29,004 bases of DNA, from positions 1 to 29,004 of the IMG/VR virus record IMGVR_UViG_3300010885_003468, one strand, 5' to 3'. The stretch comes from a virus. The notes under the pieces were generated by a model. The model was given only the letters and a program-made list of their open reading frames with translations. It was not told the origin of the DNA and made no database searches. The position numbers and the translations under genes are program-made. This document shows, piece after piece, positions 3,366 through 15,400 of the stretch; the stretch's first letter is position 1; each line of letters opens with the position of its first letter.

Positions 3366-5228
3366 ATGGCATTTGAAGTTAGCGGTGCAATCCTCGCAGA
3401 AGGGTTAATAGACACAGTAGCGGCAGATGCGGCGTTGGAGTTAATGCCTTTGGCAATGGAATCCCTTGCTCCAGAAGTTTTAGGTTCTCTTGCACCCGAA
3501 GCGTTTGCTGGATTTGGCGGTGAAACTTTGTCTAGTTTGTTTGGTTCTGAAATGGTTCCAGCTGCAATTCAACAAGCCGCTACTCCGATGGCAGAAAGCG
3601 CATTAGCTGGTGGCGCTGGCGCTGGTGAAGGTATAACTGCCGCTACTAAAGGCGCTTTGGAAACAGGCGCTGCTACTCTTCCTGAAGCCGCTTCTCCGTT
3701 TGCGCAGACTGCTCCAATGCTAGATTATGTAGAACCAAGTATAGCTACTATTCCAACTCCTGAAACCGTAAACCCTTACGAAAGCCAATTTAATGAGGCT
3801 TTCCAAAACCCAGACCCATCATTAAACGGACCTTCTCCGTATGAACCTACTGCATCTACTGGTCAATCACCACTAGTAGAAAAAGCTTCCAGCTACACAC
3901 CAGATCAGCTAAATGAAATAGCAAGAGGTCAGGGTGTTTTTCCAGAAGGTTCTAATGCTTTGCCTGGATCAGAAGTAACAGGGAATGCTAGCTTACCAGC
4001 TGGACCTCCAGCGCCTGATTCTGGATTTATGGAAGGGTTTAGTAACTTTGTAGATAAACATCCGTTTATGACAGGCGCAGGTATTTATGGGATTGCTAGT
4101 GCTACTGGGGTTTTAAACCATAATCAACAGACTTTAAATAATCAAAATCAAAACACTTATAGTAGCCCATATAAGTTTGATTCTAAAAACTTTAAAGGCT
4201 CACACCCTGACCCACAACCGTACCAAGTAAATTATTCTGGTTACGCTAAATCTAATTATGCTGATGGCGGTATTACTCAAGCTTCTCCACAAACTAATTT
4301 TGCTAAAGGTGGTTCTTTATTACAACAACTTATAGATTCTGCGGCTCAATCAGGGCAACCAATAACTCAAGACGACTATTTACAGGCTCAAGGGTTACAT
4401 ACTAGTTTTAACCCTGATTATTATTTTGATAAAGCAAACGCTAAATTTGTACCAACAAGTTCTGTTAGCATACCAACGCCTGAAGCTTCTGCCCCTGCTC
4501 CAACTTCAGATGGTGGCGGCGCTGGTGGCGGCTATGCTGGCGGTTCTATGCCTGATGAACTTAAATATGCTTCTGGTGGAATTGCTCATTATTATCGCGG
4601 TAACTTAGCTACTAGCACGGGTGGGCGAAACGATGTTTATGGCGCAACCCAACGCTTTTTAGATATGTATGACCCAGCTTCTAAATATGAAGCCCCGTCA
4701 GGAACACCAGATGTAGGTATTTTTCATGATACTAATCCGTCTACACGCGACAAAAGCGCCTATCAAGCATCAGGCATTAGAAACAAAGCTATTGCAAATA
4801 AAGCTATGGTAAAAACAGGCGCAAACTATATGCCGCCTAGCCGTCAAATGGGGCAACTTAATCTTAATACTCCTAGCGCTAAAGCAGATAATGATTCTGA
4901 TTCAGACCAAGTGTTGACTGGCGCAAGCGGCGGTATTATGGGAGCTAGTCTAGGTGGTTATGCTGCGGGTGGAAACCCCCGTTTATTGCGTGGGCCTGGT
5001 GATGGCATGAGTGATAATATCCCCGCAACTATTGGTGGGCGTCAGCCAGCGCGCTTAGCGGATGGTGAGTTTGTTGTTCCTGCTGATGTTGTCTCGCATC
5101 TTGGTAATGGCTCTACTGAAGCTGGTGCAAAACGACTACACGAGATGATGAACAAAGTAAGAGTAGACAGAACTGGGAAAAAGAAACAAGCCCCAGCAGT
5201 AAAGGCAGATAAATACATTCCTAAGTAA
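3366..5228 (+). CDS. Structural protein, likely internal virion or tail component (620 aa)
   Basis: The ATG follows the previous stop by 1 nt, with an AGGGAGAA-like ribosome site inside the end of that gene. The N-terminal 130 residues are Ala/Leu/Glu-rich and helical. The middle is low-complexity, rich in Ser, Pro, Gly, Asn and Gln. The C-terminus, about residues 535-605, holds a compact conserved-looking module: GPGDGMSDNIPA, then RLADGEFVVPADVVSHLG, then AGAKRLHEMMNKVR. I have seen this module in structural proteins of uncultured phages, with unknown biochemical role. Short A-x-G-G tags occur at about residues 299 (YADGGI), 313 (FAKGGS), 402 (YASGGI) and 520 (ASGGIM). By gene order it may correspond to an internal core protein such as T7 gp14, but no sequence match is visible. 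Confidence 0.55.
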   Translation: MAFEVSGAILAEGLIDTVAADAALELMPLAMESLAPEVLGSLAPEAFAGFGGETLSSLFGSEMVPAAIQQAATPMAESALAGGAGAGEGITAATKGALETGAATLPEAASPFAQTAPMLDYVEPSIATIPTPETVNPYESQFNEAFQNPDPSLNGPSPYEPTASTGQSPLVEKASSYTPDQLNEIARGQGVFPEGSNALPGSEVTGNASLPAGPPAPDSGFMEGFSNFVDKHPFMTGAGIYGIASATGVLNHNQQTLNNQNQNTYSSPYKFDSKNFKGSHPDPQPYQVNYSGYAKSNYADGGITQASPQTNFAKGGSLLQQLIDSAAQSGQPITQDDYLQAQGLHTSFNPDYYFDKANAKFVPTSSVSIPTPEASAPAPTSDGGGAGGGYAGGSMPDELKYASGGIAHYYRGNLATSTGGRNDVYGATQRFLDMYDPASKYEAPSGTPDVGIFHDTNPSTRDKSAYQASGIRNKAIANKAMVKTGANYMPPSRQMGQLNLNTPSAKADNDSDSDQVLTGASGGIMGASLGGYAAGGNPRLLRGPGDGMSDNIPATIGGRQPARLADGEFVVPADVVSHLGNGSTEAGAKRLHEMMNKVRVDRTGKKKQAPAVKADKYIPK

Positions 5229-5229
5229 T

Positions 5230-5657
5230 ATGTTACAGAGCGCTCAATCTTTAGAAGCAAAAAATTTAGCAGCGAGCATATTACTTAAGGAAATAGGGGT
5301 ACAGCCTTGTGGTGATTTACAAGCGTTGTTTTGGGTAGATGAAAAGAATAAAATTGAATGGGTTATTGGTTATACAGCTTTTATAGGAAAGACCTGTCAG
5401 ATGCACATGGTTAATTTAAAAGGCGGGTATACCCCTAAAAGTTTGTTATTTGGTGCGTTTGATTATCCATTCAATAATTGCGGTTTAGAAAAAACTTTTG
5501 GAATTGTAAATAGCCTAAATATTAAAGCTATGGAATATGACCGAAAATTAGGCTTTAAAGAGGCTGTTAGATTTGCAGGAATGCATGAAGACGGCGGTGA
5601 CCTTGTAGTTTTTGAAATGAACAAATCTGATTGTAGGTGGATCAGGGAGCGAAATAA

Positions 5658-5661
<4 letters not shown>
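5230..5661 (+). CDS. GNAT-fold acyltransferase-like protein, T7 gp13-like position (143 aa)
   Basis: The C-terminal half has the GNAT motif B pattern GIVNSLNIKAMEYDRKLGF (N97, A100, LGF at 107-109), followed by beta strands ending DLVVFEMN. The N-terminal half is compatible with the first GNAT strands (ALFWVDEKNKIEWVIGYTA). T7-type phages carry a GNAT-related protein (gp13 / internal virion protein A) at this relative position, where the role is in virion assembly rather than proven acetylation. The classic acetyl-CoA loop R/Q-x-x-G-x-G/A is not evident, which favours a non-catalytic role. It starts 1 nt after the previous stop without a clear ribosome site and overlaps the next gene by 4 nt (ATGA). 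Confidence 0.65.
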
Positions 5662-8609
<2,948 letters not shown>

Positions 8610-8620
8610 TAAGGTATAGC

Positions 8621-11600
8621 ATGCCTATATACGAGTACGAAGGTCTTCAGTATGACATAGCTACTGACGACCAAGCTGCGGCTAAAAATAAAATTCTTGC
8701 CCATTTAGGTAAGGCTCCAACGCCTACGGCTCCAGCTGGGTTCTCCGCCAAAGAGACTGGGCTTGCTTTTGGTCAGGGTATTGTTGGTGCTGGTAAATCT
8801 TTAACTGATGTTTTTGGCGCTAACAACGTGGCGTCTCAGGCATTGGGCAAAGTACAAGATGTATTGGGTGAACAGTATTCGCCAGAGCGTAAAGCAGAGA
8901 TGGCTCGCCGCGAAGAAATTCAAAAGAAAGCCGCTGAGTCTGGTAGCCTTACGGAAGAAATTAGCGCCTATCTAGGTAGCGTGGCAGATGCCCCAGTTCA
9001 GTCATTAGCACAGGGTTTAGGTTCTATCGTGCCATACATTGGTACGGGCGTTATTGGCGGCATAGCTAAACTAGGTGGCGCTACAGTTAAAGCTATCAAC
9101 ACGGTAATTGGTGCGGCGCAAGGTGCAGGTGCAGTAAAAGGTTCTATCTACGATGGCGTCCGTAATGAGTTAATTAATACAGGCATGGACCCTAAAGAAG
9201 CGGAAGCTAAAGCTTCTAAAGCCCAAGAGTATCTTGGAGGGAACTTCTTAGACATAGCTGGTGGCGCTGCATTAGGTGGTGTTGGCGCTCGCGTTGGTGT
9301 AGAAAACATGCTAACTCCTGGCGCAGCCGCTAAGCTAGACTCAAGATTACTAACCCGCATGGGCAAAGCCGCATTAGCTGAAGCCCCATTAGAAGGTGTA
9401 CAGGCTGGTCAAGAACAAGTAGCAGTTAACAGAGCCTTACAACAAGCAGGGTTTGATGTTGATACATTTAAAGGCGCAGCAGGCGCTGCCGCTAGAGACG
9501 CCGCTATCGGTGCTCTGACTGGAGCCGCAGTTGGTGTTCGTGGGCCTGGGGCTACTCCTGTAAAACCTCCTACAACTAAAGAAGAAACTAAAGAACAAGC
9601 TGATAAAAAGCGTGAGTTTAACAACGTTGAAACATTTACTGAAGAAGTAAAGAACCCTGACCCAACGATTGCCGCTGGGTTAATGCCTAGGTTTGATGAA
9701 AAAGGTAATCCGATTGCCGCTAACGCAGCGCCTAAACCGCCAGTAAGCCAAGAGTTGGCTGATGAAACAATAGACTTTGAAGCTAATCCAGAGATAGCTA
9801 CGCTACAAGCAGAGTACGATAAACGTGCCCAAGAGATAGCGACTGGTACTAATAAAGGTAAGATAGCCGCGCAAACTAAAAAGAATGCGGCGCTTAAAAC
9901 TAAAATTGATGAGCTTAAAACTCAAGTAGTTCAATCAAAGCCAGCAGCTGAAGAAACAACACAACAAGAAACGCCTAAAGAATCTATTTATGAAGTGCCT
10001 AAAAAAGAAGCAGATGCTTACGTAGCCGCTATAGAATCTCAAACAGTTAAACCAAACGCATCTATTCTTAAAAAACACATTAAAGCTCTTGGCATTGAAG
10101 TACCACCAGGTGTAGGGTTTAATGAAAGAGCAATTCAAGCTATTAAAGGAGCGCAAAATGCTATTCAACCGACTGACGCTGGAACAAGTGGAAATGGCGC
10201 TGAAGTACTTGGAAGACCCAATGCAAATGCAGCCCCCGCAGGAACTACAACAGCTGGACTTGGACGACCTGGAGTGGACAGCAATCAAAGTATTGAGTCA
10301 ACACCTCAAAATAGAGAGGGAGTTCAACAGTCTGCATTAGACTTAACTAAATACACAAATGTACCTTTTACCGATCTAGATACTAAAGAAGCAACTACAG
10401 TAGATTTTAGTAAAGCTTATGTTGAAAACGGGATTATTTATGTACCTAGCAGTGGCAAATTTGACTATCCTTTAGATAATTTTAGTTTTAATAATCCAAA
10501 AGCCAAAGCATTGGAAAAAATGTTATTAGATAAGTTTGCAAAAGGTATTGAGTCTCAGACTTCTTTAGCCCAATCAAAAGTTGGTCCTCCAGTTAGAAAC
10601 GAAACGTTTAATACAATCAATCCCGCTGAATCTCAAGCTGGGTTAGAAAGAAATGAAGCGCAAGCCATTGCAGACGAAGCACAACGTCAAGCTGATTTAC
10701 AAGAAATTGCTGGTAAAAATATTCCACAAGTTAAAACCGATGAAACTATCCGTGAAGAATATGAACTATCGCGCCAAGCAATTAGCGAAGAAGGTATTGT
10801 AGTTCCAGAATGGAGTAAGTTAACTGCAGATGAGCGAGACAAGTATTTAGGGACAATTACTACTAACCCATCCGCCCAAGATTTTGATAATGCAGCCAAA
10901 ACTTTAGCCACATATCGTGAACAGAAAAAAGGAACTGGCATCAAACCAGGCGAGCAACGCGTAATTAATAGTTATGAAGACGGTCGACCAATTTACCAGC
11001 GTTCTATGGTTATTGATTTGCCAGCATGGAGTGAACTATCTCCAGAAGCTAAATCTGCATACTCTAATAATGTTATAAATAATACTGTAACTGAACAAAA
11101 CATTGGGTTTGAAGCCGTTGCCGCTCAACTTGAAAAAGAAGGTAAAGGTATCCGTGGCGTATCTCGTGAAGGGGTTAAAAACCTAAAACTTAAAGGCGCT
11201 GAAGAAGTATCTTTAACAAAAGCGCAAGAAGAATTAGCTAAGTCACTTGCAGACAGGGCGCAAGCGGTAGGTAAGGGTAAACCATTATCTAACGGTTTAA
11301 TTATGTTATTAATAACGGGCAACGTTAATGGTGTTTTAAAACAACTTGGCGATGGAAAAGCTCAAGGTTTAAATATTGGCCCCCAAGAAGGAGAAAGAGG
11401 TGTTGTTAAAGAGGCAGCTAAACGTCAATCTATCCTTACAAAATTAGTATCACAGTTTTTATCCCAATCTTTAAATACTATTAAATACGAATCAAACGTA
11501 GTTGTAGCAGACTCTAACAATTCTGTAATCCAGCGTTTAGAGCGTGAAGGTAAATTAGCAGAATACGACCCAAAAACTGATACATTTTATTTTACAGAAA

Positions 11601-14600
11601 AAGGTTTGGACGAAGCAACGTTTTTACATGAAGTAGTACACGCTGGAACTGTTAAATTAATCAATCAATATTTAACTAATCCTTCATCTTTAGACAAAAA
11701 TCAGCGCGAAGCTTTAGATCACTTACAAACTATATTTGATTTTTCTAAAAAACGGTTAGGTGGTAAATATAAAAACGCATATGAAAATTTATATGAGTTT
11801 GTTGGTTATGCGTTAACAGATTCTAAATTTCAAGACGCTTTAGCAAGCATGCAAGTTCGGCCTCTTGCTAAGTACACTATTAAAGCCCAAGATTTATGGA
11901 AACAGTTTACTCAAGTGTTAGCTGATTTATACGGGCTTGTTACTGCTAAAGCTAAAGGAATGGAATTACGCCCAGAAGTATTTGACGCTTTTGCTAAAAG
12001 TTTAGCGCCGATGAATAAAGAAGGGCTTTATGAAGCGACAACTGAAGAAGAGGGCGTTACAACTCTTGAAGGTGAAATTGCTACTGAAACTGATTACGCA
12101 CAACGGGGCGCAGAAACTGAATTAAAAGAAAAGAAACAAAGATATAAACCAGGAAAAGCTTTTTTAAGTGTGCAGCCAGGGTATGAAGGTAATTTATTAC
12201 TAGAAGTAACTGAAGCATTTAGAGAAATTCTTGCGTCGCCAGAAGTAGGAATTGATGTTGCTCCACTAGCGGCTAAAAAAGCTGGTGCTAAAACACCAAA
12301 GAAAGCTGAAAAGACGCCAGCCCGTATAGCTACATTTAACGACCCAGGCAAGGAATATATGCCTAGCGAAGTACTTGCACCTAAAAACGTACGCTGGTTT
12401 AAAGAACGCTTCTTGACAAAACCTGGTTGGAGAAAGATTGCCCAAGAGTTTCAGAATGACCGTTACTATATTAAAGTCTGGGAAGATACGCTTGAGTTAG
12501 CAGGTCGGGTTTCGCATGGTGTGAATGAAAAGTTTAATAACATATACACTCAACTAACCCTTGCTACCAGCGCTGCGTCTAATTTTTATAAAGCCTACGT
12601 TGCTCAGCCAGTTGAAGCTTTAGACACCGCTATTATGGAATACTCTAAAGCGGCTAAGATTTCTACCGATGAAACACTAGCAAAACTACACGTCTTGTAT
12701 GAAGCCCTGCATGAGCCAGAGCGTCGCTTAGTAAAGTATTTGATGAACGTTCCGCTTAAAGACGCAGCTGCCGACCGACGCAAAGAAATCTTAGATTTGG
12801 TTCGTAAGAATAATAAGATTACCCCAGCTCAAGCTCAAGCATTACGCAAAGAACTAGAAGCTATTGTTGGTAACAAAAAGAACTTAGATACAGCTAGTAA
12901 GAAGTCTACAGACATGGCTAACGACGAGTACAACGTCTTGGGTATTGACCAAGCTGCGGCAAGAACTAGCGAAGAGCAGTACAGAAATGATCCTAATAAA
13001 GCGTTGTTAGATAATATCTTAGACCAAGTTAAAACAATAAACGACGTTACAGCAGAGCTTAATAAGATTGCTAACTACTGGTCACAACCTGTAACTAACA
13101 TCGTTAACTTTTACGGCTGGAAATACTACACCCCATTTAAAGGTAAGAAATATTCTCGCCATGGTGACGCTGATGAGCTATTAGACTTTGATAGCGCAAA
13201 GAATGGTAAAGAACTCCAAGAATTGGCTTACACATTTGATGGTCGTGAAAGCATAGCTGAAAACCCAGTACTTCAAGTGTTGGCAGATGCTAGCAAAGCC
13301 GCAGCCCGCGCTGGTCGACGTAACTTAACTAAGTCAATCCTTAATGCTATTACACCTAATGCTGATGGTAAAAAATTATTAGAAGGTTCTGTAGTACAGA
13401 CTATTAAGTTTGAAGACCGCTATAACGTAGATAATATTCTTAAAGATGTTAAACGTGAAAATACAGTATTTCACTATAAAGAAGACGGCAGCATTGATGT
13501 AATTGAGATTAACGACAAGAAACTACGTGAGTCTATCCGCCGTACTTATAAAGATAGCAACCCAATGGTAGACGTTGCCAATACTATTACTAGTAAGTTA
13601 GGTCAGTTACATACTCGCTACAACTACAACTTTGCCCCAATGAACTTTGTTCGTGACGCATTGACCAACGCTTGGACTATCGGTGCAGATATGGGTCCAG
13701 CTGCTTCAGCTAACTTCATTAAAGAGATTACTGGCTCAGTAGCAAAAGGTGGTTTGGCAAAGGCAATGAGAGTAGCTTATTTATTACAAAAGAATAATAT
13801 TGCTGGAATACAAGAGCTTGCTAAGACTGACCCTGGCTATAAAGATATGGTTGACTACATCCGTCATGGTGGTATGGTTTCTTATTTGCAAAGCTTAACT
13901 ACTAAATCTAACTTTGAACAGATTCAAAAACGCTTAGGCAAGAACAAGATTGCTAAGACTAAAGATCAGTTAGATAACGTTGTAGATACTTGGACAGATA
14001 TGTTTGAGATAACTAGCCGCGCAGCCGCGTTTGGTATTGCTAAGCGTTCCGCAATGCAAGCTAACCTAGCCAAAGGCATGTCACCAAAAGATGCTGAAGA
14101 TGCCGCCAACATTAAGGCAGCGGGTTATGCTAAGAACCTAGCTAACTTTGAGCAAGTCGGTGAGTACGGTAAGGCTATGGGCGCGTTCTATATGTTCTTC
14201 CGTCCATCAGCAACAGGTGCTGTTCGTGCTATTGAGGCAGTTGCTCCAGCATTTAATAGCGTAAGTTCGGCTGTTACTAATCTTCCTCCGCATATCCAGA
14301 ACCCAAAGAACGAAGCTGACGCACAAGCACTTAAAACATTTAAAGATAGCTACGCTCAGAAACAACAGAACGCCCGTATCATGGTAGCCGCTTTAATGGG
14401 CTTGGGCGCTCTTGCCTACACTATGTCCGCTATGATGGCTGACGACGATGATTTGGGTCGTAATAAGTTAATGACAGACAACATGGATCAATGGACTCGT
14501 TTCTGGCGCTTACATATTCCTGGCTTTGAAACTCCTATTCAGATTCCTTGGGGCTTTGGACTTGGTTCATTTGCCGCCGCTGGAGCGCAATTAGCTAGTG

Positions 14601-15400
14601 TAGCGTCAGGTCATCAACCTGCTAGTAAAGCATTGGCTAATGTATTCTTACAAGTATCTTTAGACTCGTTTGTGCCAATCCCAATATCCCGCATGCCACC
14701 AGCAGATAACCCATTAGCGTTTGCTGTAGATTCAATTGCGCCAAGTACAGTACGCCCAGTCATTGAGTTTTTAATTAATAAAAATGGCTTAGGTCAAGAC
14801 ATTTATAACGCTGCATCTGGTCGTCGTATGGGTGATGCGTTCTTGGGTGGGGATAAAATTCCTGAGATGTATAAAAACGCGGCAGCGGCGTTGTGGGATG
14901 CAACAAACGGCGCAATTGATATTAGTCCTAACACTATGTATTTCTTATCTAATAGTTACGTAGACGGCCCAGCTAGAATATTTGAAGGAACGTTTGGTAT
15001 TACTGATACTATATCTGGTAGAAAAGAATTTAGTGCTAAGACTGACTTACCATTAATTGGTTCGTTCTTTGGTGCGGAAGCCAACGTAGACTCTAGAGAG
15101 TTTACATCGGTAGAAAAACAAATTACAGAAAAAGCTGGTAGATTAAAGTCCGCTGAGCTTAAACCAGAACGCTATATTAAATACATGGAAGCTAATCCGT
15201 TTGACGATTTGCTAGTAGAGTCTTACAACAAAGATATTGTTGAGTTAAACGTATTGCGCAAAGAAGCAAAAGAGATTCGTTTAGATAGTAATATGACGCC
15301 TAAAGAGCGGCAAGAGTTAATTAAAGTTCTTAACAAACAACAGGATCTTATTAAGCGAAATCTAATTGAGCAATACAAAGCTTACGGAGTAGAACCCTAG
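8621..15400 (+). CDS. Giant polyvalent virion protein with HExxH metallopeptidase motif (2259 aa)
   Basis: ATG at 8621 has AAGG 8 nt upstream. The N-terminus MPIYEYEGLQYDIATDDQ is a short domain seen at the start of phage polyvalent proteins. Residues about 120-250 are Gly/Ala-rich and hydrophobic. A zincin site lies at H1003-E-V-V-H1007 with a candidate third ligand E1059 (NLYEF), the gluzincin spacing pattern. Around residues 1660-1700 the segment NFAPMNFVRDALTNAW resembles the LPD38 type of large polyvalent domains. A hydrophobic helix at about 1918-1940 precedes DDDD. The C-terminus is charged and helical. As the last and largest gene of the virion arm it parallels T7 gp16, an ejected inner-core protein; no lytic transglycosylase motif is obvious. 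It ends at the CTAG shared with the opposite gene. Confidence 0.75.
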   Translation: MPIYEYEGLQYDIATDDQAAAKNKILAHLGKAPTPTAPAGFSAKETGLAFGQGIVGAGKSLTDVFGANNVASQALGKVQDVLGEQYSPERKAEMARREEIQKKAAESGSLTEEISAYLGSVADAPVQSLAQGLGSIVPYIGTGVIGGIAKLGGATVKAINTVIGAAQGAGAVKGSIYDGVRNELINTGMDPKEAEAKASKAQEYLGGNFLDIAGGAALGGVGARVGVENMLTPGAAAKLDSRLLTRMGKAALAEAPLEGVQAGQEQVAVNRALQQAGFDVDTFKGAAGAAARDAAIGALTGAAVGVRGPGATPVKPPTTKEETKEQADKKREFNNVETFTEEVKNPDPTIAAGLMPRFDEKGNPIAANAAPKPPVSQELADETIDFEANPEIATLQAEYDKRAQEIATGTNKGKIAAQTKKNAALKTKIDELKTQVVQSKPAAEETTQQETPKESIYEVPKKEADAYVAAIESQTVKPNASILKKHIKALGIEVPPGVGFNERAIQAIKGAQNAIQPTDAGTSGNGAEVLGRPNANAAPAGTTTAGLGRPGVDSNQSIESTPQNREGVQQSALDLTKYTNVPFTDLDTKEATTVDFSKAYVENGIIYVPSSGKFDYPLDNFSFNNPKAKALEKMLLDKFAKGIESQTSLAQSKVGPPVRNETFNTINPAESQAGLERNEAQAIADEAQRQADLQEIAGKNIPQVKTDETIREEYELSRQAISEEGIVVPEWSKLTADERDKYLGTITTNPSAQDFDNAAKTLATYREQKKGTGIKPGEQRVINSYEDGRPIYQRSMVIDLPAWSELSPEAKSAYSNNVINNTVTEQNIGFEAVAAQLEKEGKGIRGVSREGVKNLKLKGAEEVSLTKAQEELAKSLADRAQAVGKGKPLSNGLIMLLITGNVNGVLKQLGDGKAQGLNIGPQEGERGVVKEAAKRQSILTKLVSQFLSQSLNTIKYESNVVVADSNNSVIQRLEREGKLAEYDPKTDTFYFTEKGLDEATFLHEVVHAGTVKLINQYLTNPSSLDKNQREALDHLQTIFDFSKKRLGGKYKNAYENLYEFVGYALTDSKFQDALASMQVRPLAKYTIKAQDLWKQFTQVLADLYGLVTAKAKGMELRPEVFDAFAKSLAPMNKEGLYEATTEEEGVTTLEGEIATETDYAQRGAETELKEKKQRYKPGKAFLSVQPGYEGNLLLEVTEAFREILASPEVGIDVAPLAAKKAGAKTPKKAEKTPARIATFNDPGKEYMPSEVLAPKNVRWFKERFLTKPGWRKIAQEFQNDRYYIKVWEDTLELAGRVSHGVNEKFNNIYTQLTLATSAASNFYKAYVAQPVEALDTAIMEYSKAAKISTDETLAKLHVLYEALHEPERRLVKYLMNVPLKDAAADRRKEILDLVRKNNKITPAQAQALRKELEAIVGNKKNLDTASKKSTDMANDEYNVLGIDQAAARTSEEQYRNDPNKALLDNILDQVKTINDVTAELNKIANYWSQPVTNIVNFYGWKYYTPFKGKKYSRHGDADELLDFDSAKNGKELQELAYTFDGRESIAENPVLQVLADASKAAARAGRRNLTKSILNAITPNADGKKLLEGSVVQTIKFEDRYNVDNILKDVKRENTVFHYKEDGSIDVIEINDKKLRESIRRTYKDSNPMVDVANTITSKLGQLHTRYNYNFAPMNFVRDALTNAWTIGADMGPAASANFIKEITGSVAKGGLAKAMRVAYLLQKNNIAGIQELAKTDPGYKDMVDYIRHGGMVSYLQSLTTKSNFEQIQKRLGKNKIAKTKDQLDNVVDTWTDMFEITSRAAAFGIAKRSAMQANLAKGMSPKDAEDAANIKAAGYAKNLANFEQVGEYGKAMGAFYMFFRPSATGAVRAIEAVAPAFNSVSSAVTNLPPHIQNPKNEADAQALKTFKDSYAQKQQNARIMVAALMGLGALAYTMSAMMADDDDLGRNKLMTDNMDQWTRFWRLHIPGFETPIQIPWGFGLGSFAAAGAQLASVASGHQPASKALANVFLQVSLDSFVPIPISRMPPADNPLAFAVDSIAPSTVRPVIEFLINKNGLGQDIYNAASGRRMGDAFLGGDKIPEMYKNAAAALWDATNGAIDISPNTMYFLSNSYVDGPARIFEGTFGITDTISGRKEFSAKTDLPLIGSFFGAEANVDSREFTSVEKQITEKAGRLKSAELKPERYIKYMEANPFDDLLVESYNKDIVELNVLRKEAKEIRLDSNMTPKERQELIKVLNKQQDLIKRNLIEQYKAYGVEP

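Follow-up and report, generated by a model that had tools for sequence, protein, structure and literature searches.

This study addressed the question of what a zinc-peptidase motif is doing in the middle of a very large viral protein. The protein is encoded in a 29,004-nucleotide stretch of DNA, hereafter the window, which comprises positions 1 to 29,004 of the IMG/VR virus record IMGVR_UViG_3300010885_003468. An initial annotation of the window had placed a HEXXH motif (H1003-E-V-V-H1007) and a third zinc ligand (E1059) in a 2259-amino-acid (aa) open reading frame (ORF), and these residues were confirmed at their positions. It is highly probable, whatever the substrate, that the product is a delivered protein of the LPD38 class containing a predicted zincin. 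Comparison with related loci further indicates that the whole peptidase cassette has been repeatedly replaced between otherwise similar phages, with retention of the catalytic set of residues. Metallopeptidase (MPTase) domains have already been published in the polyvalent proteins of phages and in the virion RNA polymerase (vRNAP) of coliphage N4; what is new here is the exchange of the cassette. The gene and its predicted active site are arranged as follows.

8621-15400, + strand: gene for the 2259-aa giant protein, with an ATG start; the structural block of the + strand ends with this gene
11237-11959, + strand: zincin (MPTase) domain as modelled, aa 873-1113, from AlphaFold2 and profile matches
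11627-11641, + strand: HEVVH, aa 1003-1007, predicted to supply the general base and two of the zinc ligands, invariant in 67 of 67 proteins
11795-11797, + strand: E1059 within NLYEFVG, predicted third zinc ligand, invariant together with F1060 in 67 of 67 proteins

Relatives were fetched with part of the C-terminal region (aa 1640-2150), without selection for the motif, and comprised 79 further loci from viral contigs, all of them metagenomic. Exactly one HEXXH was present in each of the 72 retrieved ORFs that were long enough (the remaining seven begin near a contig end), as well as in every member of a full alignment of 67 proteins (the window protein and 66 relatives chosen by their C-termini), while the number expected by composition was 0.0075 in the window protein and 0.0175 on average per relative. 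Across residues 1-1250 of this alignment the only invariant columns were H1003, E1004, H1007, E1059 and F1060, and when 54 peptidase regions were aligned independently, the same five emerged. The distance from the first His to the conserved Glu was 50-69 residues in nearly all relatives and 112 in two, and a divergent subtype (HExxHY or HExxHS) retains the Glu, mostly within [IL]KEF[IVA]AE. Homologues lacking the His or Glu, which the initial annotation had named as a refutation of its proposal, were looked for, and there were none among those covering the region. H1003, H1007 and E1059 are the predicted zinc ligands and E1004 would be the base; since E1004 is as strictly kept as the ligands, catalysis is indicated, beyond a mere metal site.

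An AlphaFold2 model of aa 873-1113, built with 54 sequences, had a mean predicted local distance difference test score (pLDDT) of 88.7 and a predicted template modelling score (pTM) of 0.84. In model numbering, a helix (55-79) is followed by three strands (87-90, 108-111 and 116-119), the HEXXH helix (126-147) and the Glu helix (185-194), with E1059 (model residue 187) inside this last one, the second C-terminal helix of the core. A single helix is thus predicted to carry the motif and a subsequent helix E1059, in the order of a zincin; at this level of the fold, the refutation by structure prediction that the annotation had named failed. The predicted fold matches the MPTase core described for phage polyvalent proteins by Iyer et al. 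(2017, PMC5512222), in which an N-terminal helix and three strands precede a HEXXH helix and a Glu helix, and in which variable inserts occur between the last two (PMC5512222); the model has an extra helix (154-174) at that point. A further shared feature is the setting, a giant protein of phage type that includes an LPD domain. The window domain lacks, however, the Asp three residues past HEXXH that marks one phage clade described there, where 12 clades are distinguished.

No direct peptidase match was found when the whole 2259-aa chain was compared with Pfam, PHROGs and NCBIfam (Pfam recognized a single domain, LPD38, and the other two gave nothing useful), and the domain had to be isolated for its kin to be seen. 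On its own, it matched phrog_2206, the virion RNA polymerase family, with E 1.5e-13 over profile positions 2039-2221; 45 of the 54 members of the peptidase set also match this family, and the window protein matches only its peptidase segment. The peptidase domain also aligned (hhalign) with four Schitoviridae vRNAPs (E 2.5e-19), and its profile matched three internal or ejection proteins of the phiKMV type, namely the internal virion protein p38 of phiNV3 (E 3.8e-12), a solved internal virion protein (9sfn_G, E 3.7e-13) and the likewise solved tetrameric ejection protein (TEP) of phiM1, gp48 (8vb2_A, E 3.8e-5), as well as a virion DNA-directed RNA polymerase (11fw_A, E 3.7e-8). A comparison with projannalysin gave E 0.005. 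The Pfam families matched by the most relatives, all weakly, were SprT-like (7), Peptidase_M91 (4) and DUF6782 (3), which are zincins or predicted metallopeptidases. In the literature, HExxH was noted in the C1 domain of N4 vRNAP in a structure preprint (PMC12633501), a zincin domain was reported in the vRNAPs of Cbunavirus (PMC8472413), and metallopeptidase domains were described as more frequent than any other domain in polyvalent proteins, among which the N4 enzyme is included (PMC5512222). A search for literature on PDB entry 9sfn, or on HEXXH in internal virion proteins, returned nothing relevant.

Two observations concern these kin themselves. Two Schitoviridae vRNAPs, L174 (residues 2187 and 2424) and L177 (residues 1218 and 2449), have two HEXXH motifs each, and perhaps two zincin domains. 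The domain of phiNV3 p38 (L173) that the RefSeq record labels endolysin and the one of phiM1 gp48 that is described as endolysin-like both match the zincin profile and have HExxH and a downstream Glu. Judged by sequence, the endolysin label may be wrong for both, and it seems worth re-examining such labels wherever phiKMV-type ejection proteins carry the equivalent domain.

The C-terminal half of the giant protein has a different character, and comprises two features.

12371-15397, + strand: conserved, almost all-helical C-terminal region, aa 1251-2259, with 72 invariant columns in the 67-protein alignment and an AlphaFold2 model
14477-14998, + strand: LPD38 (PF18857), aa 1953-2126, Pfam E 1e-13 and 52.3 bits against a cut-off of 27

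The initial annotation had placed an LPD38-like segment near residues 1660-1700, where none was found. The model of the C-terminal 1009 residues (pLDDT 83.5, pTM 0.83) is nearly all helix. It had no match in the PDB, where Foldseek gave nothing significant, but resembles many LPD-annotated giant proteins of phages in BFVD (best E 6.1e-27, TM 0.68), some of which are annotated as LT_GEWL or RelA/SpoT. The giant protein of Vibrio phage 1.205.O has a homologous C-terminal helical region (hhalign E 1.6e-28) and also carries HELIHAAT, while gp69 of the Bcep22-like phage JC1 shares an LPD38 near its C-terminus but has additional LT-like, helicase-like and LPD3 domains, none of which were found in the window protein. 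An LPD domain and a predicted enzymatic domain, the zincin, thus occur in a single large polypeptide, the combination that marks a polyvalent protein of phage type. The central proposal of the annotation, a metallopeptidase-type domain with Glu as third ligand in a large phage polyvalent protein, is borne out by the invariance, the predicted fold, the profile kin and LPD38. Its comparison with T7 gp16 did not hold: both may be large internal virion proteins by their proposed role, but neither a lytic transglycosylase domain nor a match to a T7 ejection protein was found for the window protein, and homology is not supported. The relatives are instead the N4-type vRNAPs and phiKMV-type proteins, for the peptidase domain only, and LPD38 proteins for the C-terminal part.

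The resemblance to N4 and other Schitoviridae vRNAPs comprises the homologous C1 zincin domain and a stretch of about 1200-1300 residues after HEXXH in both, but no T7-like RNA polymerase module or family was found in the window protein, and its C-terminal region has no detectable homology to vRNAP C2 (hhalign E 0.29). Similarly, the phiKMV-type proteins share the HEXXH...Glu domain but are only 1263-1337 aa long, and the C-terminal part of phiNV3 p38 shows no sequence homology to that of the window. The same peptidase domain is therefore carried on scaffolds that show no homology to that of the window protein.

The most distinctive pattern emerged when related loci were compared in pairs. In several pairs, backbones that are 74-93% identical enclose cassettes, roughly 650 residues around the peptidase, with identity below 45% or no detectable similarity. 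In the pair L105/L098, the proteins are 80-98% identical over most of the flanks and 18-46% identical across the approximately 700 residues between; in the DNA, an alignment at 86-88% covers the flanking parts of the gene and the sequence that follows it, and a block of about 2 kb does not align. The same kind of replaced block was found in L152/L156 (backbone 93%) and likewise in L161/L167, L119/L122, L107/L095, L107/L111 and L100/L108, and in L105/L098, L152/L156 and L119/L122 the backbones outside a replaced block of about 600 residues are 82-93% identical. The boundaries observed in these seven pairs lie about 440 residues before and 230 residues after HEXXH, and the limits in the window were transferred from them by alignment because no close backbone relative of the window protein was found.

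10298-12325, + strand: exchangeable peptidase cassette, approximate, aa ~560-1235

It might be argued that low similarity of the cassettes reflects fast divergence or assembly chimeras rather than exchange, given that metagenomic contigs were used throughout and that conservation of the middle region is weak overall. We consider this very improbable. The converse pattern also occurs, with cassettes 72-81% identical on backbones 45-50% identical (81% on 50% in L105/L115, 73% on 45% in L100/L130), and the window protein and L130 are 83% identical in aa 976-1050 against 23-64% elsewhere. At least seven pairs have intact, in-frame ORFs with a similar block. Moreover, the two peptidase subtypes require 11 changes on the tree of the C-terminal region, at least 10 of them forced by supported branches, but a single change on the peptidase tree (few columns, support 84). 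The converse pattern and the conflict between trees imply that fast divergence alone is insufficient to explain the cassette differences. A search of the literature, incomplete in its coverage, turned up no account of a peptidase cassette that is replaced time and again while its catalytic residues are strictly kept. Polymorphic toxins with an adjacent cognate immunity gene were considered as a parallel and rejected: downstream of the block in L105/L098 the DNA alignment is unbroken for 8.5 kb at 88%, so that no cognate immunity gene moves alongside, next to the cassette.

The domain is very likely an active zincin of a known kind that is delivered at infection, where catalysis, zinc binding and delivery are all predictions from sequence. 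In outline, the variable N-terminal half would end in a zincin of the N4 vRNAP C1 type, and the helical LPD38-type C-terminal half would form a conserved scaffold common to many podovirus giant proteins; the protein would be packaged in the virion, expelled at infection, and its zinc-loaded zincin would be active in the cell or the envelope. The position of the gene and the homologues suggest packaging and delivery. Cassette exchange favours, weakly, a target outside the protein. Our preferred proposal, held at slightly under an even balance of belief, is cleavage by the delivered peptidase, early in infection, of a protein that belongs to the host or is otherwise variable, with variation in this target or in an inhibitor driving the swaps. 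Some points weigh against this proposal and the zincin assignment beneath it. A cis cleavage site lying within the exchanged cassette would fit the swaps as well, and N4 vRNAP reportedly enters the virion in unprocessed form (PMC5512222). In Foldseek searches of the PDB, the peptidase domain gave nothing significant, the best zincins being at E 0.65-0.76; the early matches include jannalysin, PPEP-1, selecase and Zmp1, none below E 0.65. No Pfam peptidase family matched the window domain. Lastly, no demonstration of activity was found in the literature for this class of MPTase domain, nor any report on what the metallopeptidase domains of polyvalent proteins cut.

A target in trans is favoured over self-processing, with envelope opening and other roles behind. 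Self-processing would mean that the polyprotein is cleaved by the zincin it contains, either ahead of packaging or once delivered, so that the N-terminal part is freed from the C-terminal scaffold. The domain does lie at the border of the variable and conserved halves, such processing has been proposed for DdrB of phage P1, and Iyer et al. proposed it as a general role of MPTase domains (PMC5512222). Even so, it appears rather unlikely here: aa 1-1250 have no invariant residue beyond the catalytic five, very different peptidase lineages sit on nearly the same backbone, which is hard to reconcile with a conserved cleavage site in that backbone, and every relative that reaches the HEXXH site is a single ORF. 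A role at the envelope, in which the domain helps the ejected channel through the cell wall, is improbable. It draws on residues D268-D528 of the phiM1 TEP, named endolysin/exotransglycosidase-like (PMC11440229) and containing the profile match at 379-474, and on the LT_GEWL annotation of some LPD38 proteins, but the matching phiM1 residues are the HEXXH zincin set (HEAAHA ... HEF), which PMC11440229 does not mention, no muralytic family was found in the window protein, and vRNAPs, in which the polymerase acts on DNA inside the cell, contain this domain as well. More doubtful still is the reading that HEXXH forms a structural zinc site or the metal site of some non-peptidase enzyme, for instance one with an oxygenase-type HExxH domain. 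The authors of the N4 vRNAP study (PMC12633501) do name radical SAM enzymes as others that use the motif, with reference to fused radical-SAM/alphaKG-HExxH proteins, yet E1004, which in zincin peptidases is the general base and not a metal ligand, is also invariant, the weak matches are mostly to peptidases, and the order of strands and helices is that of a zincin.

The surroundings of the giant-protein gene provide some additional context. A convergent replication block follows it in the window (from 15581 onward), and in N4 and other Schitoviridae the vRNAP gene is likewise the last on its strand before such a block. A convergent block after the giant-protein gene was seen in the window family, in Vibrio phage 1.205.O and in Schitoviridae (L172, L174-L177), with replication genes in the window and the Schitoviridae; this layout is common to both although the C-terminal part of the vRNAPs is not detectably related. 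Directly upstream lies another large gene.

5658-8609, + strand: 983-aa protein rich in Gln, Gly and Ala, with similar same-strand sequence in 48 of the loci searched

This protein had no useful family match and is possibly a second internal virion protein. It and the product of 3366-5228 are both Gly/Ala-rich, with common recurring SGGIAGY/GGI-type motifs and no useful family match; same-strand sequences similar to the latter occur in 41 related loci. Between these two structural-block genes is a 143-aa acyl-CoA N-acyltransferase-like gene (5230-5661; phrog_4470, E 4e-22), for which a search of related loci gave no counterpart. In bacterial genomes the giant protein had three weak matches only. 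The N-terminal halves of relatives include an FtsK gamma domain in two (best E 1e-21), a WHEP-TRS domain in one and a weak tautomerase-like match in one, and the truncated N-terminal part of the homologue L001 has a run of ATTPE repeats (1-150).

The catalytic set is the sole fixed feature of a half-protein of 1250 residues, in which closely related phages exchange the cassette around it. Plausibly, though with somewhat less confidence than we attach to a target in trans, related phages maintain the injected metallopeptidase as a diversifying internal cassette: the backbone of the ejection protein stays constant and the catalytic residues are always kept, while recombination, selected for by host proteins or host inhibitors, brings in other peptidase lineages. 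Pairs such as L105/L098 and L152/L156 represent natural allele exchanges, and make the question of the cleavage target testable. If the proposal of a diversifying cassette is true, this slot would amount to a natural collection of peptidase specificities directed against hosts, with no immunity gene next to it.

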